A stretch of 35,400 bases of DNA from Puniceicoccaceae bacterium (GTDB lineage Bacteria; Verrucomicrobiota; Verrucomicrobiia; Opitutales; Opitutaceae): assembly GCA_007695295.1 (NCBI GenBank), contig REEB01000124.1:1-35400 (forward strand). The letters are read 5' to 3'. The stretch's first letter is position 1, and each line of letters begins with the position of its first letter. Below the pieces are notes generated by a model. It searched no databases, was not told the DNA's origin, and saw only the letters and a program-made list of their open reading frames with translations. Both the position numbers and the translations under genes were made by a program. Shown here in pieces: positions 3,437 through 24,976 of this stretch.

Positions 3437-3823
3437 TCAGACGTGGAGGAGGATCGGTTGGCGTTCGACTGTGACGGGGTAGGTTTCGACGGCGGGATCA
3501 GGTTCGTTCTCGCCAACCGTACGCATCATGCTTTTTGGCCGTCGGTGGATTCCACGCTGATCCGGTAATTCTTAACGCGGCCGCGGTTGGGGTTGAAGAC
3601 GTTTCGGTCGGTTGCGATGTCAAACTCCCAGCCATGCCAAGGGCAGCGGATGAGTTCGCCGGTCTCGAATCCACCGCCCCGGCCAGGGGCCGGTTTCCAA
3701 GTGCTCGGTGGTGCCGGTGATCACCCCCTCGCAGAGCGGCGCGAACTGGCGCGGGCAGATGTTGCGGAGGGCGTAAAAGGTACCGTGGACATTGAAGCGA
3801 TCGGGGCGGCAGGCCTTCCTCAT
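3437..3823 (-). pseudogene. Broken Rieske [2Fe-2S] ferredoxin-domain gene (5'-truncated, frameshifted)
   Basis: Three reading-frame pieces together spell the C-terminal three quarters of a small Rieske protein. Frame A (3823 to about 3662) reads RFNVHGTFYALRNICP and APLCEGVITGTTEH, ending in RWIRD. One extra base at 3661 then shifts to frame B, GELIRCPWHGWEFDIAT, continuing to VKNYRISVES and a TGA. A second shift near 3520-3535 leads to frame C, DPAVETYPVTVERQPILLHV, with stop at 3437-3439. The second cluster box CPWHGW is intact. The first, normally CPHxxAPLC, reads CPRQFAPLC, so a ligand histidine is replaced by arginine. The usual N-terminal 20-30 residues are missing: upstream sequence is the end of the neighbouring surface-protein gene, whose TGA overlaps the first ATG. 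Truncation, two shifts and a lost ligand indicate a dead gene. In intact genomes such proteins often sit next to amidohydrolases; none is seen here. Confidence 0.85.
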
Positions 3824-6630
3824 TTCAGTCTCGCACGCCGCCGCAAGAAGAGCCGCTCTGGCGCGGCCGCGCCGAGTTCCACCGCCACGGTGATCCTGAT
3901 GCGATCGCCGAGATCCTCCGTATCCTCAATGCTGATTCGGCTATTTTCCTCCCATATCTCCAAGTGCTCCGAGACCTCCACCAGCACCTCGGCATCGGTG
4001 GCCGCTTTCATCACTTCATAGGTGAACCGAAGCCCATCCTCTGTGCGGACGGCCCGCGGCAAGAGAGCCTGCGAAGGCGATTTCGGATCCAGTCCCAGCA
4101 GGTATTTGAGCACATTGCCAATGTTGTCGTGCGCGGGAGCCGCAGCGGCGCCACTGATCGCTTCATCGGCCAGCTCCCCGGGATCGAAGTGCAGCGCCCG
4201 CCACTGGTCAAAGGGTGCCAGCAGGGTCTCGAAGGCGGTGAGAACAATGTGGTTCGGGTTAAAGGGGCTGCCGGGACCGTAGTGGACGAAAAAGGATCCA
4301 CGACCGTCGGCGGTTTCCAATCGTTGCCCGGTGGTGATGTTGGCAAAGGTGCCGAACAGTCCGCCGGCGGCATTGAGAATGGTGAAGGTGTGGTGCGCCT
4401 CGGGAACAAACCCGTCGATCATGCTCAGCTCGAGCCGGCCACCGAGAAGGGCGGTGCCGGTGATACCGACGAGATCATGCGTGCCACCGGCGGAAGTGCC
4501 TCCGATCTTGATTGCAAGTATTGCGCCAGCCTGTTGCGTATAGTTGCCGACGATGGTGGTGCCGCCGGCGAGGCCGGTTTCGACACCGAGGAGAGTCCGC
4601 CCCGGCGCGAGGACGCCGCTCGCATTGACAAGATTACCGTGGAAGACGTCAACCTGCAGCATGCCGCCCGTCCACTCCAGGGTGCCACCGTCGAGAAAGG
4701 AAATTTCTCCCGCCGCCAGGCGCCCTCCGGCCAGTCGAATCGTGCCGGAGGGATGAACTTTCAGCGTGTCGGTGGAGAGAACGGATCCCGGGCCGGATAG
4801 AACAATGAGTCCCTCCTCGGTGGAACCGTTGCCGACCTGGGTCACCACACTTTCAGCCTTGGCGTGGTCTTGAATCCGCAGCGTACTGCCCGGGACGGAC
4901 GCCACCAGAAGCGTCTCATGGCATATGAACGTGGCCTGACCTCTCAGATGAAAAGGTGCGGCCGAGGGCGGGCGGTGGGTGGATTGATGAACCTCCATCC
5001 TGGCGTCGCCTTCGAGCGCCAATCCTTCGGTGAAGCTGCCGGAAAGAATTCCATGGCGGTCAAGCCGCAGCAGCCCTCCATCGGCAATCAGCGCCTTCTG
5101 GACAATCAACTCGCCACCATGGTCACCACTGCCGACGAGGATGCGTCCTCCATGCCCGAGCGAAACCTCTTCAGCCACCAGTTTTGGGGGGGCGTTGGGA
5201 GCGCCAATTGAGACGGTTGATTGGATATGTGGTTGGGGCGAGTTCGACCCCAATTTAATCTGCGAAACCACGGTCTCCGCATCGGTGCCTTCGATAGAGA
5301 GCCGATTGCCCCACAGCTCGGACCGCAGATCAAGGCTTTGTGTTTGAAGCCGGGAGCCCCACAATACCCTGATGTGCGCGGAACCGACCGGGTCGACCCG
5401 GATCGTTTCCGTGAAAACGGCCGACGATCTGAGGTTGAGGTTCAGTTCGCTGTGTGCGCCGCCCACTCCGAGGACGAGAGCGCCGCCCGTTATCGAGGCG
5501 TCATCCTGTGCAAAAATGCGTCCTTGCTCCACGACCAACTCCCCGGGATCAATGTCGAGAATGCCTCCGAACAGGCTGACCCTTGCGCCATCCGCGATAA
5601 TCAACGGCCTGGATGACCAGGACTCGCTCATGTCGAAACGCGAGGGGCCGGAATGGATTTCGTAAACGCTGTTGGGAGGTGTTCTGTGAGGTGCCCGCCG
5701 CATCCGGAAAACGCCGCCACCGGTTAGGGTCATAGAGTGTCCGGCCGCCCACTCGAACGGGATCACTCCGATTGCGAAGCATTCCACCTCGATGAGGCCG
5801 CCGTTGATGTTGATGTCACCATCCACCTTGAGGTTTGCCACTTGATTCCAGCTTCCCACCGTCAGTCTGCCGTGTTGCCGAACCCGCAGCCCCTGGGCCC
5901 CAACCCTGAGCGAAGCCCCTCCATGTTGCGTCCCCACATTGACGACACCGCTGCTGGAGGCCGCCCCGAGCGGACCGATAATCAGGCCCCCCGAGTCCGT
6001 CTGGCTGACGATGGAGCCCTGACCCTGGAGCTCAAGGGTGCAGACGGCGCCCCCTGTGCGGGTCCCGATGCGAATGTCTCCGGCGGAAACCTGGGAACCG
6101 GAGAAAACCCGCAGCGTGGGATTGGAGACCAGTGCACCAACCACGAGGGCGGCTGCATTTTGCTCCGTGGTGGTCCCTCCGACGGTGAGCATTTCTCCTC
6201 CCTGCAGATTCACGTAACTACCGGTCGTCAGGGTGAGATCGCGGCCGATGTATATTCGCGAAGAGGGGGCCGCATGGGCCGGGCCGAGAAGCAGACCGGC
6301 ACCACTGCTGAGTCCGACCTGTTGCGATACGGTGAGCTGGAAATTCTGGGGATGCAGCGTACCGGCGGTCATCGTGAGGCTGCGGGCGCTGCCGTGGGCG
6401 TTGAGCATGACCAGGTTGGCGAAGCTGATGAAGCATTCATCGTTGGGGGTCGGGGTGCCGGATGGATTCCAGTTCCCGGCCGTATTCCAAGTGCCGTATC
6501 CGAATGGCTGGAAGCGCCAGTCCCGGATGACCGCGTCCGCGGGAGATGCCGTGGCTAAGACCAAGCCCACCAGCACCGCACTCGAGGATGAGCGGTGGAG
6601 GAGAAGGTGCCTGATGGGCGTTGCGGCCAT
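3820..6630 (-). CDS. Large exported beta-solenoid surface protein (autotransporter-repeat-like)
   Basis: A 936-residue exported protein of unknown function. Residues 1-33 form a signal peptide ending in SPADA. A WNTAGNWNPSGTPTPND segment (about 48-64) follows, which resembles the opening of many secreted bacterial beta-helix proteins. The long middle is built from short Gly/Ser/Thr/Val-rich strands in the manner of autotransporter-associated beta-strand repeats. No C-terminal beta-barrel is present. Instead the last 130 residues hold a module with FDQWRALHF, LKYLLGLDP and a VLVEVSEHLEIW strand. This tail is common on secreted proteins of Verrucomicrobiota and normally carries a DGDG calcium loop; here that loop is degenerate. 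The start ATG at 6630 lies directly before the signal peptide and has no Shine-Dalgarno sequence. It is 88 nt downstream of the coupled giant-protein genes and may share their transcript. Its stop overlaps the Rieske relic. Confidence 0.75.
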   Translation of the reverse strand: MAATPIRHLLLHRSSSSAVLVGLVLATASPADAVIRDWRFQPFGYGTWNTAGNWNPSGTPTPNDECFISFANLVMLNAHGSARSLTMTAGTLHPQNFQLTVSQQVGLSSGAGLLLGPAHAAPSSRIYIGRDLTLTTGSYVNLQGGEMLTVGGTTTEQNAAALVVGALVSNPTLRVFSGSQVSAGDIRIGTRTGGAVCTLELQGQGSIVSQTDSGGLIIGPLGAASSSGVVNVGTQHGGASLRVGAQGLRVRQHGRLTVGSWNQVANLKVDGDININGGLIEVECFAIGVIPFEWAAGHSMTLTGGGVFRMRRAPHRTPPNSVYEIHSGPSRFDMSESWSSRPLIIADGARVSLFGGILDIDPGELVVEQGRIFAQDDASITGGALVLGVGGAHSELNLNLRSSAVFTETIRVDPVGSAHIRVLWGSRLQTQSLDLRSELWGNRLSIEGTDAETVVSQIKLGSNSPQPHIQSTVSIGAPNAPPKLVAEEVSLGHGGRILVGSGDHGGELIVQKALIADGGLLRLDRHGILSGSFTEGLALEGDARMEVHQSTHRPPSAAPFHLRGQATFICHETLLVASVPGSTLRIQDHAKAESVVTQVGNGSTEEGLIVLSGPGSVLSTDTLKVHPSGTIRLAGGRLAAGEISFLDGGTLEWTGGMLQVDVFHGNLVNASGVLAPGRTLLGVETGLAGGTTIVGNYTQQAGAILAIKIGGTSAGGTHDLVGITGTALLGGRLELSMIDGFVPEAHHTFTILNAAGGLFGTFANITTGQRLETADGRGSFFVHYGPGSPFNPNHIVLTAFETLLAPFDQWRALHFDPGELADEAISGAAAAPAHDNIGNVLKYLLGLDPKSPSQALLPRAVRTEDGLRFTYEVMKAATDAEVLVEVSEHLEIWEENSRISIEDTEDLGDRIRITVAVELGAAAPERLFLRRRARLK

Positions 6631-6718: not shown

Positions 6719-9700
6719 TTACTTCAGGGACAAGCCGACCATCCAGAACTCCTTCAGGGAGCCGGGATCGGGAACTTCAATGAGCCACTCGTCGTCACCG
6801 AGGTAATGGACGACGGCGGGGGCGTTGGTCCAGGGGCCGGTGGGAGCCGGGGCCTGGAAGAGGCCAAAATCGAGCATGGGGGCGTACTGGACCGGAAAAC
6901 TGTACATGAGATTGTAGTTGGCGCCGCTTCCAGAGAGTTGGATCTCCACTTCAGGCACGGCGAGAAATGCCGGCGGCTCGGTCCAGGAGGCGGGGAAAAA
7001 CGGGTCGGCGCCGTCGAGGAAGAGCTGTAAAAGCGAGTAGCCGTTGTTAAAGGGCTCGGCGAAGGGATCGTTATCCAAGCCACCGAGAAAGAGCTCCTCC
7101 CACTCATCGCCGAGCAAATTGCCATCTGTATCCGTTTCAATGATACCGGGAAATGAGACAATCTCGCCGGCGACTCCACTGTCGAGCCGAAGGACAACGA
7201 TCGTCTCCGGCGCACAGGTGCCGGACAGATCGGTGAAGCCGGTCACGCGGACCACAGTGCCCGCCAGCACTGGCGGCGAGAGAGGCAGGGCAAAGGGGCT
7301 CCCGTCCTCCTCAAGCAGGGCGACGGGATTGGCGGTGTGCGCATCGAGCAGGACGGTGCAGGTGGCGGTTTCGGCGCCGGCCGGCACGATCAAGTCGCGC
7401 TCGACCACGGTACGGGGCTGGACGGCGGCGAGGACTTTCCCGATACCGACCGCGGCGGAGGCGTAGGTTGCCGGCGTCAACTCGGTGATGGTTTCAGGCG
7501 CCCCACCCGGCCAGTCATTGGTGTAGGAGGGTGGCAGCACACCGGCATGGATAAAGCGCCGGAGGGCGTCGAAGGGCGGAAGAAAGGCTCCCGTGTAGGT
7601 GTTGTTAAAGCGGGCGCTGATCCGGTGGACATCCAGCGCGACCCGGCGGAGATTCATAATGTCGGTATCGGCGGATGTCCGCAGGGTGTCGCGGATCGTC
7701 TCGACCGCGGCATCGAGCCGATAGAAGGGATGCGCGGTTGAGCCGCCGGCCACCGGAGCTTCTAGGTCGGACAAATCGTCCATTTCCGCATAGACCAAGG
7801 GCGTTTCAGGATCCCCCGCGAAGGCCACGGGGACGGCCGCACTGTCCGCAGAGCGGCCGGGGGTGATGGTGAAGCGGAAGGCATTCAATGCGCCTGCGGT
7901 CGGCGCGTAGGCGGGCGGGAGCACTCCACGCTCCAGCAAGGTCTGTTGCAGGAAGCGCTCGACCAACAGGGTGACCACGCTCTCGAGTGAATCGAGGGTG
8001 TAGCCCATTTCCATGACCTCGAGGGCTTGGTAATAGCCGATGGCTTCATTGCGCCAGTGCTGGGCTTCCGGGATGACACCCGTGCCTCCATAGGGTCGGA
8101 CAAACGGCGCTGACTCGGGTCGTGGCATTGTGAATACGCCGATGATCTCCCGGCCAATGAACGGTTCTTCCTCCGGGGGAGGAAAGGGCGCATCAAGCGC
8201 GAAGGCCGGCCGCGTGGAAAAGACCGCCAGGGATCGTGCACCGAGCGAGCCGAGGTGGACGAGTTGGGCCGAGGGCTGCGGAAAGAACGAGTGCTGCCGC
8301 ACGCCGGCTTCCTCGTCGGGCAGCATTGGATCGGGTGTCCCGACATCGATCAGGCTGCCCGCGACATCGCGGGCGAAAATCTGATTGCCGGGGTTGGGCG
8401 TCGTATCGGGGAGGAGGTCGCCGGGGAGCAGGCTGGCGGTGGCCTCGTTATTGTCCCCGTCATGGGAGAGTGGCCGGACGTAGACTCTCACGCCGGCATC
8501 GGAGAGCTTCTCAGGCGGGAGACCGGCCCCTTCGAGCAGGCGTTGGAGGCTGTTGCCCGTGTTGGTCGCTCCGTCGGCCGGGATGGCCTGGAAAGGATCG
8601 TGGCCGAGACCGATCTTGGCGTAATCCGGCACGCCGTCGCGCAGGGAACTGAGGGTATCGGCAGGTTCGGTGAAACGGTAATGGGCCTGTTGGATCGGGG
8701 AGGCGGCCATTCCGACCGCGGTGAACCACTCGACCACTGTTTCCTTGTAGACAATACGTTCCAAGTGGCGGCTGAGCCAGACCGGATACTGGGGATCTTC
8801 CGGATCCGGTTGCGGACCCGGCGCGATGAAAGGCAGCCACGGAGCGCCGGGGCCGCGTCGCCAGAGCAGATCGGCGCCGGGAGGGATAGCGAACTCCACC
8901 GCCACGGAGGTCCGGTAGAGACCGGGCGCGGGGGAGATGGAAACCATCGGTACTTCGGAGCCCCAGCCGGGGTCGAGTGGCGCGAGGGAGATGTCGGACC
9001 GGTACTGGTTGAAGAGGGCGTGGGTGGTGCCCGGCGGTTTGGCTCCGTAGGCATAATTGACCGGCCCGCCGATCCCGGCTTGCGGGCCTTGGAAAAACGA
9101 GCCCGTGGCGGTGACATTGCCGCCGGGCTGGTTGGGGTCGCCGGAACTCCACTCGCCGGCGCTGTGCCGGGCGAGGATGCGGGCCGCCGGGTTCGCGAAG
9201 GGCTCGCCGGCGAAGACCAGAACATTGCCCCGGGTGCGGCTGGAGGGGGCGGGGATCCATTGCGCGGTGTCGATGGAATCGAAGACGCCCGTGCCATTGT
9301 TATGGCGCCGAGTGTCCACGCCGGTTGAGCGCCCGGCCACAATGCCGTCGGCTTCAAAGCCGGGCAGCCCGACCTTGACCAAATGCAAAGTCCCGCCGCC
9401 CACCGGCAACGCCGATGCATAGGCCTGGCCCGGCGGTGGGATGAATTGCTGGAGGATCGGCCCGACAGTGGTGCCGCTAATGGACCGCACCACGGCTTCA
9501 CCGGTCTCCAACAGCTCGATCAAGCGAAACTCGCCCGCACCCGCTGTTACCAGCGAGAGGCGGTGGAGCGGGCCGCTGGCGTTGACCGCCGTGGCGGTGC
9601 CGAAGGTGAAAGTGCCGGGAACCGGCTCCTGCACCGGAAAGATGCGGAAGTTGCTGTTGCCGGGGGTGTAGAAGATGAAAAAAGCCAGCCCGCTGGCGGT

Positions 9701-10441
9701 GGTCGGGCCGCCGACATAGCGGGTTGCCGCCGGCAGGGATGGAATGGTGAAGACCTCCGGTAAACCGGCCGCACCGAGATGATAGACCCGGAAGGTGGCC
9801 ATCGCGGGCATGCGCTCGAGTACGGCCAAGGTGGGGCCGAAGCCGGTCTTGAGGATGACCCGGTTGAGACTGTCGAACGGATGTGGCGTGGAAGCCTTCA
9901 CTGCCTGCTGGGGGAAATCGGGCAGGCTGTTGCGGTAGAAGGCGAGTCGATGGTTGTTGGGGGCGTTGTTGAGCGTCGACACCACCAGCAGATCCTCGGG
10001 AGGGCTGGTGCCCGTGAGCTGACCCGCGGCGAGGGCGGTCGGTCCGACCGCCGGGAGGTGAACCGACTGCGGGACGGATTGTGCGGTGCTGTTGAGCGGC
10101 AAAAGGACGATGCGGTTGAATTCCGGCCCGGTCAGGGCCAGCGAATCGCGGAGCATGGTTTGCAGCCGTCCGGCGGTTACGCCGGTGATGCCGGCGGCTC
10201 CGGAAGAGCGCGGATCGACCCAGTTGAAAACACCCTCGGAGGTCTGGTAGCCGACCCGCAGCGCCCCGGTTTCCTTGTCCACCACAACCGCGTCGGCGAA
10301 GCCATTGCCCGTGAAATCGGCCCAGCCGTGGAATTCGGCCCCGGCATCCTCGAACCAGACCGCGGGCAATGGCTGGGCGGCCAGCGGGACCAGCCAGACT
10401 CCGGCAAACCCGAGGATGAGGATGGGAAGGAGCGGTTTCAT
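6719..10441 (-). CDS. Giant secreted FG-GAP/VCBS-like protein of unknown function
   Basis: A 1,240-residue exported protein. Residues 1-23 are a signal peptide (ends PLAAQ). The N-terminal third contains FG-GAP/VCBS-type propeller repeats, such as WADFTGNGFADAVVVDKETG. In the middle, an Ig-like strand set starting APGLYRTSVAVEF resembles chitobiase/beta-hexosaminidase C-terminal domains. Further on are acidic loops such as TDTDGNLLGDEWEE that resemble degenerate thrombospondin-3 or dockerin calcium sites. No catalytic motif was recognised. Its ATG overlaps the stop of the upstream FN3-like gene (TGATG at 10439-10443), so the two are translationally coupled. That implies the products are made in fixed ratio and may act together. 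It could be an adhesin, a surface-layer component or part of an extracellular complex; the sequence does not decide. Confidence 0.75.
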   Translation of the reverse strand: MKPLLPILILGFAGVWLVPLAAQPLPAVWFEDAGAEFHGWADFTGNGFADAVVVDKETGALRVGYQTSEGVFNWVDPRSSGAAGITGVTAGRLQTMLRDSLALTGPEFNRIVLLPLNSTAQSVPQSVHLPAVGPTALAAGQLTGTSPPEDLLVVSTLNNAPNNHRLAFYRNSLPDFPQQAVKASTPHPFDSLNRVILKTGFGPTLAVLERMPAMATFRVYHLGAAGLPEVFTIPSLPAATRYVGGPTTASGLAFFIFYTPGNSNFRIFPVQEPVPGTFTFGTATAVNASGPLHRLSLVTAGAGEFRLIELLETGEAVVRSISGTTVGPILQQFIPPPGQAYASALPVGGGTLHLVKVGLPGFEADGIVAGRSTGVDTRRHNNGTGVFDSIDTAQWIPAPSSRTRGNVLVFAGEPFANPAARILARHSAGEWSSGDPNQPGGNVTATGSFFQGPQAGIGGPVNYAYGAKPPGTTHALFNQYRSDISLAPLDPGWGSEVPMVSISPAPGLYRTSVAVEFAIPPGADLLWRRGPGAPWLPFIAPGPQPDPEDPQYPVWLSRHLERIVYKETVVEWFTAVGMAASPIQQAHYRFTEPADTLSSLRDGVPDYAKIGLGHDPFQAIPADGATNTGNSLQRLLEGAGLPPEKLSDAGVRVYVRPLSHDGDNNEATASLLPGDLLPDTTPNPGNQIFARDVAGSLIDVGTPDPMLPDEEAGVRQHSFFPQPSAQLVHLGSLGARSLAVFSTRPAFALDAPFPPPEEEPFIGREIIGVFTMPRPESAPFVRPYGGTGVIPEAQHWRNEAIGYYQALEVMEMGYTLDSLESVVTLLVERFLQQTLLERGVLPPAYAPTAGALNAFRFTITPGRSADSAAVPVAFAGDPETPLVYAEMDDLSDLEAPVAGGSTAHPFYRLDAAVETIRDTLRTSADTDIMNLRRVALDVHRISARFNNTYTGAFLPPFDALRRFIHAGVLPPSYTNDWPGGAPETITELTPATYASAAVGIGKVLAAVQPRTVVERDLIVPAGAETATCTVLLDAHTANPVALLEEDGSPFALPLSPPVLAGTVVRVTGFTDLSGTCAPETIVVLRLDSGVAGEIVSFPGIIETDTDGNLLGDEWEELFLGGLDNDPFAEPFNNGYSLLQLFLDGADPFFPASWTEPPAFLAVPEVEIQLSGSGANYNLMYSFPVQYAPMLDFGLFQAPAPTGPWTNAPAVVHYLGDDEWLIEVPDPGSLKEFWMVGLSLK

Positions 10442-13400
10442 CAGTTCAGGGGAATGTCCACCTCGTTGGTGGGGATGATGGTGACGAGTTCCCGGGTTGT
10501 TTCATCGTAGAGGGCGATCAAGTACCGGTAACGGGCTCCGGTCAGAACCGGCAGGCTGTCGATGACATACATATCGACAAAACTGCCGACGGCTCCCGTG
10601 CTCGGGACGAGAAACATGAAGGGATCGTAGACGATATGCCCGGCCGGTGCCGCGCCGGTTTCGAAAGCACTGGCAATCTGGTCCATCATGGGCGACACCT
10701 GCACGACATCGCCGGGCACGGTTTCGAAGAAAGCGAACGGCTTGCCCGGCGGCATCGCCTCGTCCGGCACTTGGATACGGTACAGCACCATGGGAAACAG
10801 CCGCCGCTCCACACCGCCAATAAGCCCTTTGAAGATGTACTCGAAAGGATCGACATTCGTGGCGATACCGGGCACCGGCTCGCGCCCGACCGTGTAGCTG
10901 GTGGCTCGGCCCGGATAGCGCCCCACCCTGACCCCGACACGCTGATGGTTGGAGTTCCAGACCGCTTGGACCATGCCGTTGAACACCATGGCCGCGGGCG
11001 TCACCGAAGGCAGCGGCCGAGCGGGCCAAGGCACATCGGGATCTTCGGGATCGGGAGGCGGCGACCAAGTGAACCGTTCTTCGTTGCTGAAAGGCCCCTT
11101 CAGGCCCGACTTGGCGACGGCGCGGACACGGACAAGCCAATTGGCGTTGGGTGGGTCAATGGGCGTCTCGATGGTGAAAGTGGCGCCGTTGCCGAAAAGC
11201 GGACCAACCTTCTCGGTCTCGAAAACCGTGGTGTTGACGTTGCTGTTGAGGATCGGGCTGTGCAACACGATGATGGGGATCGGACCCACGGGCGAGTACA
11301 GCTCGGTCGAAAAGCCGGGAGAAGGATGGGAGCCGGTCGTGTTGGCGATGGTGACTTCGAAATGCGAAATGCCGTGTGGAGGGCAGAACCATTGGATTAA
11401 GGCGACCGGATTCTGTGCGGATCCTCCGCCAAGGATGGGGGCCAGCATGGGCTTGGGGATCGGTTGTGAGCCGGGGGCGTCCACGCACCCGAAGAACGCC
11501 AGGGCACTGGGATTGCCATGCACATCGAACACGCGGGCGTAGAAGCAGACCCGGGCGGCGGCGGCGGGCAGGGGATTCATCAGAACTGGCGGAATCGGCA
11601 TCGGGCCTTCCTTCAGCAATAGCATCGGCCCATCGTCGATGGTGTAGTAAATCTTGTACTGGGCCGTCCCGGTGGTGGGAGTGACATCGATCCAAATGCC
11701 GGGGCCATTGGGCGGGGTACTGCCCGGAGGCGGCGGATAGTGCGTGCGGCAGGGTCGTCCCCGCCCGGTGGGATCCAAGGGATGGCGGGTGTAGCGCATC
11801 TGCGCGATGAACTGAAAACGGTAACGCTCGGCGCCGGACAAAGCAACCTGGGTCGAGGTGTGATACCACTCACTGACCTCCCCCGTCTGGGTGCCGGCGC
11901 GCGCCCTCACGAAGACCAGAGGATCGAGCAGCTCCCGTGCTATGAAAAACTCAAGCAGCAGTTTGTCTTCGTTGCCAAGAAAGTGATACGGACCGGTGGC
12001 AAGCAGGAGAATGGTCTCCTCTGGATTGCGGTAGAACTCGAACTCCACCCAAGCGATGTTGGGGTCGGCATGGAGCCGGTGGGTGAGCATCTCGAAAGCC
12101 ACCGTACCACGTTCCGGCCCATCGTCGTCGCGGATGACCTCGATGTTGCCGCCGCGGGACATCTCCGGCTCGCCGCAGAGGATGCGGACTGCGCCGCCCG
12201 GCTTTTCCGGACCTTCGCGATCGCGCAGCACACCGAAGACGGGCGGGCTGTGCCCGGAAAGGTTTCCGGTGAAGGGCGGGAACGGGCAAAAGACCTCGCC
12301 ATTTTCGACAAAGCTGGAGTCATCCACGGCCCGCAGGGTGTACCAGTAGGTCTGGTCGAGATCTGCCGGGACGGAGGGCGATCCGGGGCCGTCGTCGAGA
12401 TATGTGTAGGTGGTTTGTCCCGGAACATGCGGGATGGGGCCGGCGATCAGATTCGCCAGTGGATTGGCCCCGAGAGAATAGACATCGGCAGAGTTTTCCC
12501 AGCGATAAACCAGGTAACCGGAGGTGCCGGAATACTCCCCTGGAGGGTTGGCATCCCAGGTAAGTTTGAGAACTTGCTTCGGGGTGGCACCGTCAAAGTG
12601 GTAATAATTCTCAACCACCAGTCCATCCGGAGTCGGCGGCGGCATCCGGGTGCAGAACGTGCCGAGAACCCCGTGCGAAAAGGCGTGATCGCGGCCGAGT
12701 GCGTCGCGCGGGCTGACAAAGTAATAAAACTGGAGCCCGTTTTCGACCGGGGTGTGACTGTCGGGATACCCGGGCATCTGCGATTCGTGGTCGCGGGCGA
12801 AGTAAGGCTCAGGCTCGGGGGCGACGACTTCGGCCGGGCTGAGCACTTCGGCCGGATAGAGGGGACCGCGATTGACCCGGCCGATGCCAAGGTTGGGATC
12901 GAACATTGCGGCCGCCAGTTCCTCGGGCAGCGGCGGAACTGCATCCCAACCGAAGGACTCGGCCACGCTGCGGGGCACCCGGTAGAGGTTGAAACCGCGC
13001 ATGAGCAGCCCGAGTCGCAGCAGATCCGGCGGGGTGTCCCAGCGGAAGCGGATGTTGAGATCGTCGTAGCCCGGCTCCTGCGTAAAGGGCGGTGCAATGG
13101 CCAGCGTGGTCGGCGGCGGCAGCAGAGTCGGATTGGCGTGATCGAGCGTGACCCGCCCCACCACCGAACGCGCCTCCATCCCTGGGAAATCAGCCATGCG
13201 CAATTCAAAGGTGGCCACACCGCCGGCGGGCAGCGGCACGGCGAAGGCATTGCCGAAAGCCATGTTGAGAGACGGGAGTGTGCTCACCGCCACCAGCAGC
13301 AGATCGGCCGCTTCTTCATCCTCCATCGCCGCGCGCACGAGGGCGGAAACCTTTTGGCCGAGGGAGAGGTCGGCCGTTGGCAATAAATCCTGGAACAACG

Positions 13401-13791
13401 CATCGATCGTTCGGCCGGCCAGCCCGGGCTCCTCGCCGAGGGCATGGACCGCGCGGTTGACCAGCGTCTCGATGACTTGCGGAGAGGTTTGCGGCCGCAG
13501 CACCGCGATGCGGGCATAGGGGTTGGCCGAATCCGAGGAACCGGCTTTCATCCAAAGACTCACTTCCTTGGATCCGATGGTCTTTATTTTCGAGGGCCAA
13601 GCTTCGAAGAAGACGTAAGCGGTGGGCGTGCCGGAGACGTCGGTCGTCAGCCCTCCAAGGGTGATGACCGGATCGACGGGGATGTCCTGGGCGGCCAGTG
13701 GGACCGCGCCCAGGCCAGCAACGAGCCAGGCTCCGGCAAGGAGGCGGGCGGTGCGCCTGGGCAAGGATGTAATTGAACTCCGGTTGTTCAT
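10441..13791 (-). CDS. Giant secreted fibronectin type III-like protein of unknown function
   Basis: A 1,116-residue exported protein. Residues 1 to about 33 are a signal peptide with an arginine-rich n-region and the end VPLAAQ. After an N-terminal domain of about 200 residues come several FN3-like beta-sandwiches. Signs are repeated patterns such as LKLTWDANPP, GYLVYRW, YWYTLRAVDDSS and WLVRVRAVAKSGLKGPFSNE, the last typical of an FN3 G-strand. No enzyme motif was recognised. The frame stays open for 73 codons upstream. The ATG at 13791 is chosen because it precedes the signal peptide and overlaps the stop of the preceding gene (ATGA, 13788-13791). The stop again overlaps the next start. 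Both overlaps indicate a translationally coupled set. The role is probably structural or adhesive, by analogy with other FN3 arrays. Confidence 0.77.
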   Translation of the reverse strand: MNNRSSITSLPRRTARLLAGAWLVAGLGAVPLAAQDIPVDPVITLGGLTTDVSGTPTAYVFFEAWPSKIKTIGSKEVSLWMKAGSSDSANPYARIAVLRPQTSPQVIETLVNRAVHALGEEPGLAGRTIDALFQDLLPTADLSLGQKVSALVRAAMEDEEAADLLLVAVSTLPSLNMAFGNAFAVPLPAGGVATFELRMADFPGMEARSVVGRVTLDHANPTLLPPPTTLAIAPPFTQEPGYDDLNIRFRWDTPPDLLRLGLLMRGFNLYRVPRSVAESFGWDAVPPLPEELAAAMFDPNLGIGRVNRGPLYPAEVLSPAEVVAPEPEPYFARDHESQMPGYPDSHTPVENGLQFYYFVSPRDALGRDHAFSHGVLGTFCTRMPPPTPDGLVVENYYHFDGATPKQVLKLTWDANPPGEYSGTSGYLVYRWENSADVYSLGANPLANLIAGPIPHVPGQTTYTYLDDGPGSPSVPADLDQTYWYTLRAVDDSSFVENGEVFCPFPPFTGNLSGHSPPVFGVLRDREGPEKPGGAVRILCGEPEMSRGGNIEVIRDDDGPERGTVAFEMLTHRLHADPNIAWVEFEFYRNPEETILLLATGPYHFLGNEDKLLLEFFIARELLDPLVFVRARAGTQTGEVSEWYHTSTQVALSGAERYRFQFIAQMRYTRHPLDPTGRGRPCRTHYPPPPGSTPPNGPGIWIDVTPTTGTAQYKIYYTIDDGPMLLLKEGPMPIPPVLMNPLPAAAARVCFYARVFDVHGNPSALAFFGCVDAPGSQPIPKPMLAPILGGGSAQNPVALIQWFCPPHGISHFEVTIANTTGSHPSPGFSTELYSPVGPIPIIVLHSPILNSNVNTTVFETEKVGPLFGNGATFTIETPIDPPNANWLVRVRAVAKSGLKGPFSNEERFTWSPPPDPEDPDVPWPARPLPSVTPAAMVFNGMVQAVWNSNHQRVGVRVGRYPGRATSYTVGREPVPGIATNVDPFEYIFKGLIGGVERRLFPMVLYRIQVPDEAMPPGKPFAFFETVPGDVVQVSPMMDQIASAFETGAAPAGHIVYDPFMFLVPSTGAVGSFVDMYVIDSLPVLTGARYRYLIALYDETTRELVTIIPTNEVDIPLN

Positions 13792-16646
13792 ACTTTGACT
13801 TTGCCCTTTATTCGGCCGCTGGATGTCACGCGGCCGTCGAACCGCACCGACTTCGATTTTTTGACGCACAAGGGACAAATGCCGAACTTGCCGGTGACCG
13901 TTCCCTTGCCGGTCAGTTTGAGTTCGAGATTGCTTGAACTGCTGAGGATGTCGGGGGAGCCCTTGATCAAGCCGACCAACTCGACCTTGCCCGTGACCGA
14001 GGCGACGCAAAGGACGGTTCCGGTGACGCCGAACATGATTTTACTGCCGAGCGTCGGACCTTCGAGGAAAAGGAAGAAGCCGGCCCCGAAGTGAACGGTG
14101 ACGCTGAAAAAGCAGGTGTCGGGCAAGCCCAGGAGCGGCAGCAGCGGCACCGAACCCTGACCGTAGACATACATCCCGGTCAGCGGGACGCTCCCGAGCA
14201 CATCCGCCACGAGCGGATCCCAGAGTTTGATCGGATCGAGGGTGCAGGTGCGGCCAAAGAAGACGCCGCCCAAGGCGCCGTAGTTGTTGCCGAACTTCAT
14301 CCCCAGCATCGCGGTGATGTAATTTTCGGTCGCCCCGAAAGCCAAACCGGCCGCGAGATTGGTGATTTTAAACCCTTCGAACCCGATTTCCCCTTCGGCC
14401 ATCTTGAAGCTGCCCGCCATGCCAACGGGGAAGAGCTTCCAAGCCTCGTTGGTACTGAGGAAGGTGAGCTTGGTCGCGACATTGACCCTCACGCCGGGCG
14501 TGATGAAGTCAATCGGCACATTGTTGGCGCCGAGAGTGACTTCAGTCGCGAGCCCGCCCTCCGGCACGCAGGAGGGGCTCTGGTCGTCGGACTGGTATTG
14601 GTTGATTTCAAGAAAAGCCTCGATCCGGGTGTCGGTCGGAATCATGAGGCGGAACTCGCCGTCGATCCGGACCTTGCGCAGGGCATTGTCCTGGAAAACC
14701 GCATACCCCTGGACCTTGGCGGCGGCGAAGGAGGCATTGAGCCGGTCGCCGACGGCTCCGCGCACTTTGTCGTCGATCGCGGCGATGGCCGCGGCCAGCA
14801 CTTCGCGCACAATGGTGTTGACCGAGCCGAAGACGGAGTCGGTCAGCGAGTGCATCAGGATATTGACGTCGAAGATCCGGTGTTTGATGGCGGTCTGGAC
14901 CTTGGCTTTGTAGGCGGTGCCGTAGAAGCGGTCCATGAACTCCTTGCGGATGCGATTACGTACTTGATCGGCCGATACGGCCTTGAAGTTGTTGCCCGGG
15001 CCGAATTGGTCCAGGTAGACCGAGAGGGCGAAGCGGGCGGAGTCGGCGACCTGGGCGAGTTCGCTGCCGGCACCGACGAAGGCATCCTGGAAAAGTTGCT
15101 GCAGCTCGGCGCGAAGCTCGCCGCCGGTGCCGATGGCGTCCTGGATTTCCCCCAGCACTTTGTCGACGTTTCGAAAAGCACCGGCGATGTCGCGCAATCC
15201 CGGCTCCACCTCGCTGAGGAGCGGGGCCATGAGTTGGTTCAGCTCCTGGTCGATGCCAGCCCCGACGGCGGCGGCGAGATTGGCGCCGAACTCCCCGGCG
15301 AGCTCCTTGATCAGCGCCCGGGCGAGATTGCGGACGACGTTGATCTGGATGGCGTTGTTTTGCGGATTGCCCGGCTCGAGGAGCTGGATGACGCCGTTCG
15401 GGCCGATCAATCCCTGAATGCCGGCGCGGATGTCGCCGATCCGATCATGCAAATGGTCGAGCTGGTCGAGCTGCGCCGGGAGAACGCCGAGGCGGTTGAG
15501 CACTTGGGTGCGCAGGGTGCCATTGGGATAACCGAAGGTCTGGGCGAGGACGACGTCGGGGTTGGTGGTCCAGTTGCCGCCGGACCAGCTTTGGTCGAGC
15601 TGGTTGTAGAGCTGGTTGATGGCCTGGTTTAGCGCGGATCCCAGCAGTTCCTCGAAGTAGCTGTTGAGGTTGTCACTGAGCAGCTTCGTCATCGTCGCGG
15701 TGGACTGATGGATAAGCTGCTGGACGCCCGGAGTGATGGCATCGGCGACCACTTGGGCCATGCCGGTGCTGTCCGTGAGACCGTTGATGACGAGGTTGGC
15801 GAGATTGAGCTGCGGCAAGGTGTCGAACTGCGCACCGAAGCGGATCTCGGCCCGCTCCGCACTCAGGTAGCGGATGTCGTGCTCGATGTTGAGAACGACG
15901 AAATCGTTTTTCTCGGCCTGGGCGGATCGGAACGTGCGGGTGTTGGTGTCCCAGGCGACGGGGTAGTTGAAGTCGATGGCGCCACCGAGCCAAGTTTGCC
16001 GGGCGCGGGGTTGGTATTGCTGGGATGTGCGGTAGGTGTTGATGGATTGCCCGGTGCCGCCGGCGCTCTGCGGGTAGGGGTAGCCGCGATTCCAGGAGTC
16101 GTGGTCGTTGTTGTCGAAGAAGCCGGAGGGGTTGCCACCGATCTGCCAGGAACCGTTGGCGAGGAAAACGGGCGCGGTGCCCCAAAGCACACTCTCCGGA
16201 GCAGCGGCAAAGGTCTGGAAATGCACTGGCAACTGCTCGAAAAAGCTGACCCGGACGTGGCCGGCGAAGTTTAGGAAACCGAAGGGGATCGCAGCAGGCG
16301 GCGAATGGATGAAATTCGGCGCCACACCGGTGACATTGAGATAGGCGAAGGTGAGCGGGATGAAGGTGTACGTTTCGTAGGGATCGGAGGGGTTGGCGGG
16401 CTGGCGGAGCGGCCCGCGCAGGGTGGCTTGGGCGGGCGCTTGGAAGCGCGAGCGAGGTCGGGGATGCCGCGGGCCGCCGGGATCAGGTTGCCGTGGGGAA
16501 ATACTCCGATGGTGCCATAAAGCACTTCGGGCATGTGGGCCGAAAACGTGGCCGTGCCAAGGGTGAGAAAGGCGTTCGATGGGTCGCACTCCTGCCCCGG
16601 CTCCTGGACGAACTGCATCGCGAAAACATCCAGGGGTGCATTCCAA
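13788..16646 (-). CDS. 3' part of a frameshifted giant secreted protein
   Basis: Open frame of 952 codons whose first 60 or so residues (down to about 16455) look like out-of-frame, proline/arginine-rich shadow sequence. Real protein seems to begin at FQAPAQATLRGPL and continues the product of the ORF upstream. No plausible start codon or signal peptide exists near that point, which argues against an independent gene. The region has a beta-rich part rich in Asn/Tyr/Phe, then about 350 residues of predicted helical sequence (from ADAITPGVQQLI to DDKVRGAVGDRLNASF) with heptad-like spacing. A hydrophobic glycine-rich beta region with scattered cysteines follows, and a Lys/Gly-rich tail containing CPLC and ending GRIKGKVKV. 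No family is recognised. Its stop overlaps the FN3-like gene start. The natural product is probably one protein of about 1,864 residues covering 13788-19381. Confidence 0.65.
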   Translation of the reverse strand: MECTPGCFRDAVRPGAGAGVRPIERLSHPWHGHVFGPHARSALWHHRSISPRQPDPGGPRHPRPRSRFQAPAQATLRGPLRQPANPSDPYETYTFIPLTFAYLNVTGVAPNFIHSPPAAIPFGFLNFAGHVRVSFFEQLPVHFQTFAAAPESVLWGTAPVFLANGSWQIGGNPSGFFDNNDHDSWNRGYPYPQSAGGTGQSINTYRTSQQYQPRARQTWLGGAIDFNYPVAWDTNTRTFRSAQAEKNDFVVLNIEHDIRYLSAERAEIRFGAQFDTLPQLNLANLVINGLTDSTGMAQVVADAITPGVQQLIHQSTATMTKLLSDNLNSYFEELLGSALNQAINQLYNQLDQSWSGGNWTTNPDVVLAQTFGYPNGTLRTQVLNRLGVLPAQLDQLDHLHDRIGDIRAGIQGLIGPNGVIQLLEPGNPQNNAIQINVVRNLARALIKELAGEFGANLAAAVGAGIDQELNQLMAPLLSEVEPGLRDIAGAFRNVDKVLGEIQDAIGTGGELRAELQQLFQDAFVGAGSELAQVADSARFALSVYLDQFGPGNNFKAVSADQVRNRIRKEFMDRFYGTAYKAKVQTAIKHRIFDVNILMHSLTDSVFGSVNTIVREVLAAAIAAIDDKVRGAVGDRLNASFAAAKVQGYAVFQDNALRKVRIDGEFRLMIPTDTRIEAFLEINQYQSDDQSPSCVPEGGLATEVTLGANNVPIDFITPGVRVNVATKLTFLSTNEAWKLFPVGMAGSFKMAEGEIGFEGFKITNLAAGLAFGATENYITAMLGMKFGNNYGALGGVFFGRTCTLDPIKLWDPLVADVLGSVPLTGMYVYGQGSVPLLPLLGLPDTCFFSVTVHFGAGFFLFLEGPTLGSKIMFGVTGTVLCVASVTGKVELVGLIKGSPDILSSSSNLELKLTGKGTVTGKFGICPLCVKKSKSVRFDGRVTSSGRIKGKVKV

Positions 16647-19381
16647 TAGGCGGCGATGACCGACTGTTGCCCGCCCGCGACTTTCATCCCGTCGAGCGCG
16701 CCGTGGCAGAGGAAAGTCAGCTCCTCGAAGTCGAGGTCATAGTCGGAAGGATGCGGCAGGTAGAGGGTACCTTCGGTGCGCGAGTCGACCACTTCCGTAT
16801 CCAGAAAAGCAAGACCAAAACTGCTCAGGGTGAAGTCGTAGCCGCTGAGGAAAACCTTGGCCGGATCCATCGCGATCTGGTCGTGGATGCCGGAAACGCC
16901 GCCAAACCGGAGGTAGTATTTGCTGCGGTTTTTAAGCGTGTACCAACCATAGGGGGAACCGGCGAGATAGCTGAAGCCCTCGACCGGCGAGGCGGCGTTG
17001 TCGGAGACCGGCCCGGCCCGGAAGTTGAGGCCCGCGTAGTCGTGCAGTCCGTTTTGGTAGGCGGTGGTGCCGGCCCGTTCGGCGATTTGCCCATTGTTGC
17101 GGTTGACGCCCGAGAGATGGATGACCGCGGGGCGGAGATTGGCGGAGAGGCTGGAGCTGCCGCCGCGCAGGAAGTGGCCGGAGGAGGCGAACGTCGCCTC
17201 GATGAAGTCCGATGCGCGATGGGTGTAAACGTTCGCCCCGCTCTGCCAGGCCCAACGGAGGATGAAGGGGGATGGGAAAACTCCTTCAGCGATCAACCCG
17301 CCTTCCTGGTGGATGCGAAGCCGGTCATTGTCGGGCCGGAAGTTCGCGGTCTGAAAGCCAAGACCCGCACCGCAGCCGGGTGACCGGCAATCGGCCGGGA
17401 AACGCACCACCACTGAATCGCCGGGGAAAAGCTGCAGCCAACTGTTGGCGGTGTTGACCAAGTCGGAGGACACCGCCACCTGTCCGGATTCAAAGACCGC
17501 TTCGCTGGCGAAAGGCGCATGCATTCTCACCTGTCCGGATCCGAGCGTGAAGGTGGCGGTGAGCCGGGCGCCCTTGGCGGAGCCGACCGAGGCCACCCGG
17601 TACGTCCCGCCCACGGCGATCGCGCTGCGCCAGTATTGGTCGTTCGAATGCTTGATCTTTTTTGTCCCCGGCACCGGCGCCGCATCCATTTCTTGGTAGA
17701 GGTTGCCGAAGACGGCGCGGGCATTGTTCGTCCCCTCCGTCCACGGCGTACCTTCAAACCGCCCCAGCGGCACATTCCAAGTCAGCGCGCTCATCCGGGC
17801 CGCCACCGGTTTGGACTCTTCCACGACCCACAATTCGGATGTGGGCGGGACATTGATGACGGGATTGATGAGCGGATCAAGGGATTGGTTGAGGGGGACA
17901 TTCGCGAAAGGTATGGCCGGATTGAGCCGCGTGGCATGGGGGCTGTTCGCGAAACCGAAGCCGGCTGGAAAAAACGGTTGCACTGCGGTGGTCTCCGCTC
18001 CGTTCGGGGTCAGCCGGGTGCTGATGCGAAAGTAGCGGACATTGGCGACCTCCCCAAAGTCCGGCAGGCTCGGCGGCGTGACCGCGATGTTCGCTCCCCC
18101 GCGGTAGGCGGCGTCGCCATTGGGCAGGAGCCCGACCGGGATGCCGTTTTGACCGTAGGTGTGGCCCGGCATGCCTTCGATCGATCCTGCGTCGGCCGGC
18201 ACATTCCAAACAGTGTGGATTTCGCTGCCAACGTTGTTCGCACCGATCGAAGGGTCGTTGGTGATCTCGGAGACCATGGTCGCAATCTGGGCGTTGCCGG
18301 TGCCGAAAAGCAGACGTCCGCTGAAATGCAGCAATTGCGCGGGCGCCGAGTCCACCGTGTTTCCCGGCAGCACCAGCGGCGTGGGCGGGGGACGCTCCAA
18401 GTGGGAAATCTGTGCCCGGAGGCGGTACTGGTGGTTGACCGAGTCAAGCTGCACCCCGGGCTCGGGACGGAACTGGACCAGGCGGGTGAAGGCGGTCGTC
18501 TGGGGCCGTTGGAAGGGGGGGACGAAGGCGAAACTGTAGCTGTTGAGCGTCGGCTGCGGTGCGGCATTCACAAAAGTGTCCGCCACCGCGATGACCTCGT
18601 CGTTTCCATCCACCATTTCCAAACGGAAAATGACCGGGATGGTGTCATTGGTGGCGGGGAGAGTGGGGGAATCGTAGCGGTAGAGCCGGAATCCCACCTC
18701 CGCCGCAAAGGTGTCGCTGGCATTGGGACCGAAGATGGACCGGTCGGTGATCGTGACAGACTGCAGTAAGGCGACCGCGTTGAGGTTGGGATCCGCGCCC
18801 GGGGCTCCGGTGAAGTGAATGAAGCTGTTCGCAACCACCGATTGCTCCGGCCCGAGGGACTGGATGATCTCGCCGACCTCCCAGAAAAAGTCACCCTCCA
18901 CCCGGTAGGTGGTGTAGGGGTTCAGCCGCTCGGCCGGGCGGACAAAGTGGTCGATGGTGATGATCTCGTTGTTCGCCCCGGCCGGAATGGCAAAAACCAT
19001 GGGATCCGTCAGTACCTGCGGCGGCTCCATGGACGTCTCATCCCGGAGACTCACGGCCTCCCCGGTTTCCACATCGATGAGCCGGAAGCCGGCAAATCCG
19101 TGGACCTGGTCGACATTGGCCCCGGGATTGTCGAAGGCGACCCGCATGCGCACCCGGATCATGTCCCGGTTGTAGCCGGAACCGGGGTTAAATTCATCCG
19201 CATCCAACACATACCCGGGCGACGTGTAGCCCAAAAACTCGACCGTGTGGGAAACCGGCTCCGCCGAACCTGCTGCCAGAGAAGCGAAAAAACCGAAAGC
19301 CATCCCAACTGAGAGAACTTTCGGCGAGAATAAGCGTCTCCGGGAATCCGTGGCTACGGCCGAAGGCAGGGGGATTTTCAT
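16271..19381 (-). CDS. 5' part of a frameshifted giant secreted protein (signal peptide and beta-rich domains)
   Basis: Open frame of 1,036 codons encoding the exported N-terminal portion, about 976 residues to the apparent shift near 16450. The ATG at 19381 precedes a signal peptide (KVLSVGMAFGFFASLAAGSA, residues about 26-45). An upstream in-frame start at 19414 is possible but adds nothing typical. Several beta-sandwich-like segments follow, the last ending YGTIGVFPHGNLIPAARG. After IPDLA the translation turns into Arg/Pro/Ser-rich noise, while the protein-like sequence resumes in another frame. The whole interval 13788-19381 is 5,594 nt, which is two more than a multiple of three and so fits one missing base. 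This is the first gene of the coupled secreted-protein set. The cause may be a sequencing error or a real mutation; no slippery heptamer was found. No family is recognised. Confidence 0.65.
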   Translation of the reverse strand: MKIPLPSAVATDSRRRLFSPKVLSVGMAFGFFASLAAGSAEPVSHTVEFLGYTSPGYVLDADEFNPGSGYNRDMIRVRMRVAFDNPGANVDQVHGFAGFRLIDVETGEAVSLRDETSMEPPQVLTDPMVFAIPAGANNEIITIDHFVRPAERLNPYTTYRVEGDFFWEVGEIIQSLGPEQSVVANSFIHFTGAPGADPNLNAVALLQSVTITDRSIFGPNASDTFAAEVGFRLYRYDSPTLPATNDTIPVIFRLEMVDGNDEVIAVADTFVNAAPQPTLNSYSFAFVPPFQRPQTTAFTRLVQFRPEPGVQLDSVNHQYRLRAQISHLERPPPTPLVLPGNTVDSAPAQLLHFSGRLLFGTGNAQIATMVSEITNDPSIGANNVGSEIHTVWNVPADAGSIEGMPGHTYGQNGIPVGLLPNGDAAYRGGANIAVTPPSLPDFGEVANVRYFRISTRLTPNGAETTAVQPFFPAGFGFANSPHATRLNPAIPFANVPLNQSLDPLINPVINVPPTSELWVVEESKPVAARMSALTWNVPLGRFEGTPWTEGTNNARAVFGNLYQEMDAAPVPGTKKIKHSNDQYWRSAIAVGGTYRVASVGSAKGARLTATFTLGSGQVRMHAPFASEAVFESGQVAVSSDLVNTANSWLQLFPGDSVVVRFPADCRSPGCGAGLGFQTANFRPDNDRLRIHQEGGLIAEGVFPSPFILRWAWQSGANVYTHRASDFIEATFASSGHFLRGGSSSLSANLRPAVIHLSGVNRNNGQIAERAGTTAYQNGLHDYAGLNFRAGPVSDNAASPVEGFSYLAGSPYGWYTLKNRSKYYLRFGGVSGIHDQIAMDPAKVFLSGYDFTLSSFGLAFLDTEVVDSRTEGTLYLPHPSDYDLDFEELTFLCHGALDGMKVAGGQQSVIAAYWNAPLDVFAMQFVQEPGQECDPSNAFLTLGTATFSAHMPEVLYGTIGVFPHGNLIPAARGIPDLARASKRPPKPPCAGRSASPPTPPIPTKRTPSSRSPSPISMSPVWRRISSIRRLLRSPSVS

Positions 19382-19472
19382 GGCTGCTGACGGAGGTGAA
19401 ACCCCAAGTGTCACGGGCTCGACAGCAATCTCGACCCCAAAACTCCCGGAGCAAGGATGGACAGGGCAACGA

Positions 19473-23541: not shown

Positions 23542-23696
23542 GCCCGGATCGGGCCTTTCGGCCACGCCACCCGCTCCGCCGCGGAGCGCCGTCCCCGCTG
23601 GCGATCCCTTCGGCAACCCGGATGCACCGGAGGTGAGAACGAAGTCCTTTCCTTGATTGAATTGGCGTCCGCTCCGGTTCACAACACGGAAAACCC

Positions 23697-24845: not shown

Positions 24846-24976
24846 CAATATTCTCACTACGGAACTTTCCACCATCACGGTGGGAGTCCACGTCCCCTGC
24901 CACCGGTAAGCCGGCCGTTGATCGCTCCGTTGGAACAGTGCGCAAACTTGCGACTGCCCAGACCTTCTCACCAATT

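Follow-up and report, generated by a model that had tools for sequence, protein, structure and literature searches.

The window analysed here, a stretch of 35,400 bases that makes up one whole contig of a 4.6-Mb draft genome in 278 contigs, carries on its minus strand three genes arranged head to tail, designated A, B and C, which as judged from their sequences form a lineage-specific module of Verrucomicrobiota that is inherited as a unit and codes for three large exported proteins. We infer from the same comparisons, with a probability of about one half, that the three products are the subunits of a hitherto undescribed envelope complex, probably one for adhesion or ligand capture, both its assembly and its function being deduced rather than observed. 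That A-B-C is a unit is suggested by the adjacency of the genes, their near-constant order, the matched copy numbers where these were counted, the congruence of the trees and the export signals, and the recurrence of the gene order in relatives excludes chance. The original prediction of an undescribed extracellular three-protein system gained support from the recurring gene order and from the agreement of the three trees, and needed correction in one point, its first gene being split in the window.

Genes B (10441..13791, minus strand; 1,116 codons) and C (6719..10441, minus strand; 1,240 codons) are intact single frames of the predicted lengths, the first encoding a probably FN3-like protein, and A, B and C lie adjacent, in that order, on one strand. 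The end of A overlaps the start of B in an ATGA (GTATGAAC) and the end of B overlaps the start of C in a TGATG (CTGATGAAA), as had been anticipated, and signal-peptide-like N termini were recognized by eye in all three products, in agreement with the proposal that each carries its own signal peptide. The prediction of a first gene of about 1,864 codons did not hold, because the region 13788-19381 has 5,594 bases, which is no multiple of 3, and is read in two frames. The N-terminal part of A (frame 1a, 16271..19381, minus strand) encodes a signal peptide and about 970 residues matching no Pfam family, and its final 50-65 codons or so constitute an out-of-frame tail; the C-terminal part (frame 1b, 13788..16460, minus strand) encodes about 880 residues that comprise beta strands, a helical region, a meander of about 16 strands and a CPLC motif near the C terminus. 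The corresponding open frames, 16271-19414 (with an ATG at 19381) and 13788-16646, overlap each other, and the family-like sequence crosses between them at about 16421..16475 (minus strand).

Just downstream of C lies a gene of 936 codons (3820-6630, minus strand) for an exported protein matching no Pfam family, whose C-terminal 120 residues or so resemble by eye another Verrucomicrobia-type C-terminal module; the C profile gave no match at E<=1 to this protein. Carbohydrate-related genes flank the trio at 1-1869 and 21166-29027 and include a GH32-type gene, a CelD_N gene that we take to be of the GH9 type, an oligogalacturonate-lyase-like gene, a GH78-type rhamnosidase gene and a gene for a GLAA-B/beta-helix protein. 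MiaB-like and MgtE genes are also found among the flanking genes of the window.

When aligned to relatives, the two pieces of A in the window jointly span one A protein. In most relatives A is a single frame of about 1,800-2,230 codons, the full-length proteins of seven relatives having 1,786-2,225 residues, and the genome of the window itself contains two further sets, on contigs C65 and C115 (the latter stopping inside C), in both of which A occupies one frame. A single open frame was not found in the window copy, nor in four other split copies of A (L088, L092, L132 and L134), whose breaks fall at sites unlike that of the window. Because most homologues have one frame and the four other splits break elsewhere, the sequences indicate that the break in the window is a mutation or a sequencing or assembly error, and programmed frameshifting in A was ruled out. 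Gene B is also split between two frames in one relative (L080), and the split copies all come from draft assemblies.

A profile of the C-terminal half of A matched 24 of 387 genomes of the phylum and 16 of 198 genera, one of the 24 matches being weak (E 6.8e-5) and the best two candidates being scored in most genomes. A search with the C protein matched three of 57 genomes, the window's own included and one of them (G005) solely in short C-terminal stretches, and when B and the second half of A were compared with five hand-picked genomes, the same two gave matches; a genome from another family of the order (G056) carried five A-B pairs. Scanning a collection of species genomes yielded 59 A loci in 47 assemblies (counted by contig name), nearly all from Verrucomicrobiota, and by title these belong to Opitutales, Verrucomicrobiales/Akkermansiaceae, Pedosphaera-type bacteria, Kiritimatiellae/Pontiellaceae and other Verrucomicrobia, along with one bin labelled Sumerlaeota and two of no stated phylum. 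The 59 loci are partly dependent, several being near-identical and five lying on the same contigs as the sets of G056. The distribution of A-B-C across the phylum is patchy.

The recurrence of the three-gene order in other genomes, which had been proposed as the check on a true system, was clearly observed. A B frame was found to start on the same strand within 600 bases of the end of A in 57 of the 59 loci; C came next in 45 of these, that is, in 45 of the 45 loci where the contig continues, the contig ended in or just after B in the remaining 12, and among the 57 A-B loci there was none where the contig continues without C. The exceptions are L098, from Roseibacillus persicicus, where A stands alone, and L127, where the order is B-C-A. 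The R. persicicus genome has two copies each of A, B and C, distributed as one full set, the lone A and, on another contig (L153), a B-C pair that lacks A. Homologues occurring singly would have told against a system; they are seldom seen, the clear case being this lone A, whose genome also has the A-less B-C pair. Among the 30 loci of the phylum search, each inspected with 1.5 kb of flank, B adjoined A in 26, and the other four comprise the same lone A (L059), a locus that stops before B (L068), the weak match (L069) and one real exception (L052). A longer stretch around L068 (L152) revealed B beside A at the contig edge, and further sequence of the contig of L052 (L151) shows A parted from B-C by 6.6 kb containing a gene for a 2,124-residue protein, exported as judged by eye. 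This protein (L151, 5829-12203) contains repeats that we read as being of the right-handed-helix type, and by eye its end is again a C-terminal module of the Verrucomicrobia type. In one further locus (L099) a C fragment lies directly ahead of another A-B-C.

Copy numbers of A, B and C were equal in five of six genomes in which they were counted (2/2/2, 1/1/1, 2/2/2, 1/1/1 and 7/7/7); in the last of these, six sets share contigs, and the remaining A and the B-C presumed to belong to it are on separate contigs. For the sixth genome, which is fragmented, the tally is five A, seven B pieces and five C pieces. No general flanking gene was found among the 59 loci, the largest shared family occurring at five of them, when up to two gene calls per side (fewer at contig ends) were clustered. 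A sigma-factor-like gene and a gene for a Ser/Thr-kinase-like protein of about 1,000 residues, both recognized by eye, adjoin three sets (L101, 2915-6793; L105, upstream; L127, 11143-14759) and may regulate the operon in that branch; since they stand beside three of 59 loci, they were discarded as a general part of the system. A mobile-element origin was likewise set aside, B having no match in a plasmid collection and the C-terminal half of A none in a phage collection.

Maximum-likelihood trees built for the two halves of A, for B and for C from the 27 loci with all parts shared 18-20 of 24 splits in pairwise comparisons, and after label shuffling of the A-B tree pair the mean was 0.24 shared splits and the maximum 2. 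The trees are not identical, with 0-3 strongly supported conflicts per comparison and up to three for A versus B. The nearest neighbour agreed for 26-28 of 35 loci, and the distance matrices of these 35 loci were correlated with rho values of 0.52 (A-B), 0.32 (A-C) and 0.67 (B-C), each of which was reached in 0 of 500 permutations. Sets compared within one genome are 25-41% identical, and in eight of nine paralogous sets A, B and C had the same nearest relative, located in another genome, A being the part that differs in the ninth (L123). We read the sets as old parallel lineages that, to judge from these sequences, were duplicated and retained as units.

Export signals are found in the relatives as well. 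By a simple heuristic, 41 of 49 A, 57 of 60 B and 45 of 47 C frames begin with a sequence resembling a signal peptide; as a control, the same heuristic was applied to internal positions of the module proteins, where 52 of 1,010 were positive, and to other long frames, where 72 of 594 positions were. Of the eight A frames that failed, seven carry extra sequence ahead of the matched region. A homologues of about 2,225 codons with extra N-terminal sequence occur in L076 (5966-12649) and, at similar length, in L078, L079 and L094, the extra sequence of L076 giving DUF5122/Rax2-type propeller matches.

Protein C is the part with the most familiar domains. At E<=0.1, the Pfam families TSP3_bac (26, best 3.9e-10), FG-GAP_3 (18), FG-GAP (7) and CHB_HEX_C_1 (6) were matched by the indicated numbers of 38 C relatives, which bears out the prediction of an FG-GAP-like protein; the window C alone matched FG-GAP_3 at E=0.2 and gave no match to TSP3_bac. 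An AlphaFold2 model of C computed from 38 sequences, excluding the first 40 residues, reached a pLDDT of 82.9 and a pTM of 0.66 and starts with 28 strands arranged in seven blades, which correspond to an N-terminal beta-propeller of the FG-GAP/integrin-alpha type at 9122..10321 (minus strand). Integrin alpha, LGI1 and bacterial lectins are among the best structural matches of this propeller, which have Z values of 21.6-23.6 and rmsd values of 3.2-4.3 over 274-321 residues; the search bears mainly on the propeller, and a chain missing from its listing is no evidence of absence. Both the fold, in the model, and the repeats, in the relatives, place C among FG-GAP beta-propeller proteins, and TSP3 repeats, which elsewhere bind calcium, are present in the relatives; the shared propeller fold says nothing of the function of C. 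Besides the seven-bladed propeller and TSP3-type repeats that the C proteins of relatives have in common with FG-GAP/integrin-alpha proteins, C differs from the latter by an Ig-like piece in some relatives, a helical region of no assigned family, a lineage-specific C-terminal module and its tie to A and B. One C homologue (L101, 16242-22697) extends beyond 2,150 residues and contains a DUF5122 propeller and cadherin/Ig-like domains.

The TSP3 stretches of C also matched, at E<=0.1, the NCBIfam models of MtsD (29 of 38 C proteins) and CglD (17 of 38), the myxobacterial surface proteins of cohesion and gliding (NF047639 and NF033765), and the best match of the Amuc_1099 model among C relatives had an E value of 7.7e-12. 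Nevertheless, C is not a member of these families: in eight C proteins scanned singly the three models scored 10-41 bits against cut-offs of 800, 400 and 50, and the likeness to MtsD and CglD covers about 30-60 residues at 10-36 bits against 800 and 400. The window C matched none of the three models. The 'pilus-like' lead offered by Amuc_1099 was abandoned, the TSP3 stretches alone accounting for the matches in the singly scanned proteins.

C ends in a shared module. In six genomes the C profile gave 15-47 matches each, and among the listed matches below the full-length ones most were short and fell at positions of about 560-640 or 1000-1150, so that the C-terminal 140 or so profile positions recur in other proteins. 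At 16 sampled places where a match extended to the last profile positions or almost so far, 11 ended at most nine residues from a stop codon, one ended 40 residues before it and four were in frames that run on. In the window this module (6719..7141, minus strand) consists of a TSP3-like loop and a beta domain, and is common to many other exported proteins of these bacteria; its position and recurrence suggest that it would be a lineage-wide sorting or attachment module. The earlier statement that no anchoring domain explains the proteins is accordingly weakened by the finding that C ends in a module shared by many exported proteins.

For protein B, nine of 45 relatives matched the fn3 family at E<=0.1 (best 2.3e-5), and every other Pfam family was confined to at most two of them; the window B gave no fn3 match, and B may be FN3-like, as predicted, on the evidence of its relatives. 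Comparison of B with PDB sequences gave none at E<=0.01.

Protein A appears, on sequence criteria, to match no known family. Its N-terminal half showed no recurring Pfam family (none in more than two of 41 members) and had no match among PDB sequences, profile comparison of its N terminus with B revealed no relation, and when the window proteins A and B were compared with NCBIfam the A pieces matched no family. The C-terminal half gave weak Pfam matches, mostly to helix-type families and in up to 25 of 54 members (among 25 of 62 families listed), and its helical region weakly matched amphipathic-helix families. A model of this half (877 residues, 54 sequences, pLDDT 74, pTM 0.50) runs in the order strands to residue 200, helices at 207-554 (14760..15803, minus strand) and an amphipathic antiparallel meander of about 16 strands at 565-876 (13794..14729, minus strand), most of which alternate hydrophobic and polar residues. 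This agrees with the predicted beta/helical/beta protein with a CPLC near its C terminus. No match to a viral fold library was obtained at E<=0.001.

The fold of A admits two other interpretations of the trio. One is that A is a new outer-membrane barrel, autotransporter- or translocon-like, whose C-terminal strands would anchor or export the N-terminal region and pass B and C to the surface. Some 16 long strands do follow the helices, a second structural alignment of A retrieved porins, TOM40/VDAC and ushers at Z 9.1-12.3, and the A proteins of many relatives close with W-x-V/Y-D-F/Y/L, a motif unlike the ends of B and C that resembles the C-terminal signal of outer-membrane proteins; of 63 frames, duplicates included, 42 have W at -5 and 45 finish with F, Y or L. 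However, the porin-type matches have rmsd values of 6-11 A, the last strand is short and the clade of the window lacks the terminal motif. The loops of the meander, moreover, show no alternation of long and short and vary little (13 of 15 have a length sd <=1.6), and the hydrophobic face of the strands contains 0.4% W and 3.6% Y, against the alternating loops and the W and Y on the hydrophobic face that are generally expected of porins. We regard a barrel as a credible though unlikely explanation. The same face is rich in A, G, V, F, L and I, which would also suit a carrier of hydrophobic, lipid- or sterol-like ligands in which strands and helical domain enclose a cavity and B and C serve as docking parts. 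The five best Foldseek matches of the A model in the PDB are large lipid transfer proteins, namely microsomal triglyceride transfer protein (two chains), lipovitellin, ApoB and vitellogenin, which run in the same beta-helical-beta order, and 19 of 54 A members gave apolipoprotein-type helix matches at E<=0.1. These Foldseek matches (E 1.5e-4 to 5.5e-2, probabilities 0.08-0.28) have TM-scores of 0.03-0.11 and rmsd values of 37-71 A, which means no real superposition; helix matches of this kind are typical of any amphipathic helix, the PDB matches including designed bundles and coiled coils; and the A model reaches a pTM of 0.50 only. No large lipid transfer protein was among the 50 listed matches of the second alignment, where absence from the list is no evidence. 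We regard the carrier as quite improbable.

A third interpretation dispenses with a complex altogether and holds that A, B and C serve a polymer-degrading pathway as extracellular enzymes, or parts of enzymes, under common regulation. The window contig does carry GH32, GH78-type and pectin/cellulose-type genes, and FN3 and CHB_HEX_C domains, seen in relatives of B and C, respectively, are found in secreted glycosidases; co-inheritance would fit a pathway of three separate enzymes as well, and A and B mostly lack a family, so that an enzyme is possible. Against this, no catalytic Pfam family recurs (for the C-terminal half of A, among 25 of 62 families listed), the weak matches being confined to single members (for example GHL5 at 0.061, Peptidase_M4_C at 0.074 and Isoamylase_C at 0.0066), the flanking genes, compared by clustering rather than annotation, vary by locus, and a constant three-gene order with congruent trees would in our judgement be unusual for independent enzymes. 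We consider separate enzymes improbable. The envelope complex, which we prefer, has to accommodate the broken order of L098 and L127 and the separation of A from B in L151, the tree conflicts (most numerous for A versus B), an uncertain membrane role of A, the broken A of the window and the patchy distribution (24 of 387 genomes, one of them weak). A toxin complex, likewise an A/B/C trio with FG-GAP, was also considered and rejected, the 12 Pfam families listed for C including no Rhs/SpvB type and the proteins having their own signal peptides.

In the proposed envelope complex, A, B and C would bind one another at a fixed ratio. A would act as the scaffold, its beta meander and helical region placing it in the outer membrane, against that membrane or around a hydrophobic partner, B would be an FN3-type connector, and C would present a propeller stiffened by TSP3 repeats, the C-terminal module routing or fixing C to the cell surface as it may do for other proteins of the lineage. 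The likeliest task of such an assembly would be the recognition or capture of an extracellular ligand, whether a surface, a partner cell or a macromolecule, and the ancient paralogous sets of one genome would then provide different specificities, as in SusC/D pairs or adhesin families. A bolder, speculative and rather unlikely extension is that A founds a new class of envelope protein, of beta-helical-beta order and forming a barrel or a hydrophobic cavity, and together with its two exported partners makes up a new surface apparatus; this would take up, transport or export some substance across the outer membrane and would have diversified into ancient parallel sets in Verrucomicrobiota.

Several known systems resemble A-B-C in part. 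The SusC/SusD pairs of Bacteroidota are envelope partners that were duplicated together and persist as several diverged paralogous sets in one genome, a feature that A-B-C shares; in contrast, A-B-C comprises three exported proteins and has no general neighbour, and no TonB-dependent receptor or SusD family was among the Pfam families listed for A, B and C. The large lipid transfer proteins (MTP, lipovitellin and ApoB) resemble the C-terminal half of A in their beta-helical-beta order and head its Foldseek list by name, whereas A is bacterial, cannot be superposed on them and has none of them among its 60 listed sequence matches. With type V autotransporters and outer-membrane barrels A has in common a signal peptide, a large N-terminal region, helices, C-terminal strands and, in many relatives, the terminal aromatic motif; it differs in that its barrel is only a candidate, in loops unlike the porin expectation and in having two separate exported partners. 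No description of the A-B-C trio was found in searches of the open-access full-text literature, PMC13274419 included. The individual domains are familiar, and the trio would be a multi-subunit surface protein system, with nothing yet pointing to a new mechanism.

Each copy of A-B-C costs about 12.5 kb, so that the seven-copy genome devotes close to 90 kb to it. Direct testing is possible in the named strains that carry the trio: Luteolibacter marinus NBU1238, in which the set of L129 is intact, Roseibacillus persicicus KCTC 12988, and the Pontiellaceae B1224, which has a single set (L090), and B12219, the records of these last two bearing no MAG label. Verrucomicrobiota are common in soils, lakes and seas, and the surface biology of this phylum would become accessible once it is clear what A-B-C binds or moves.
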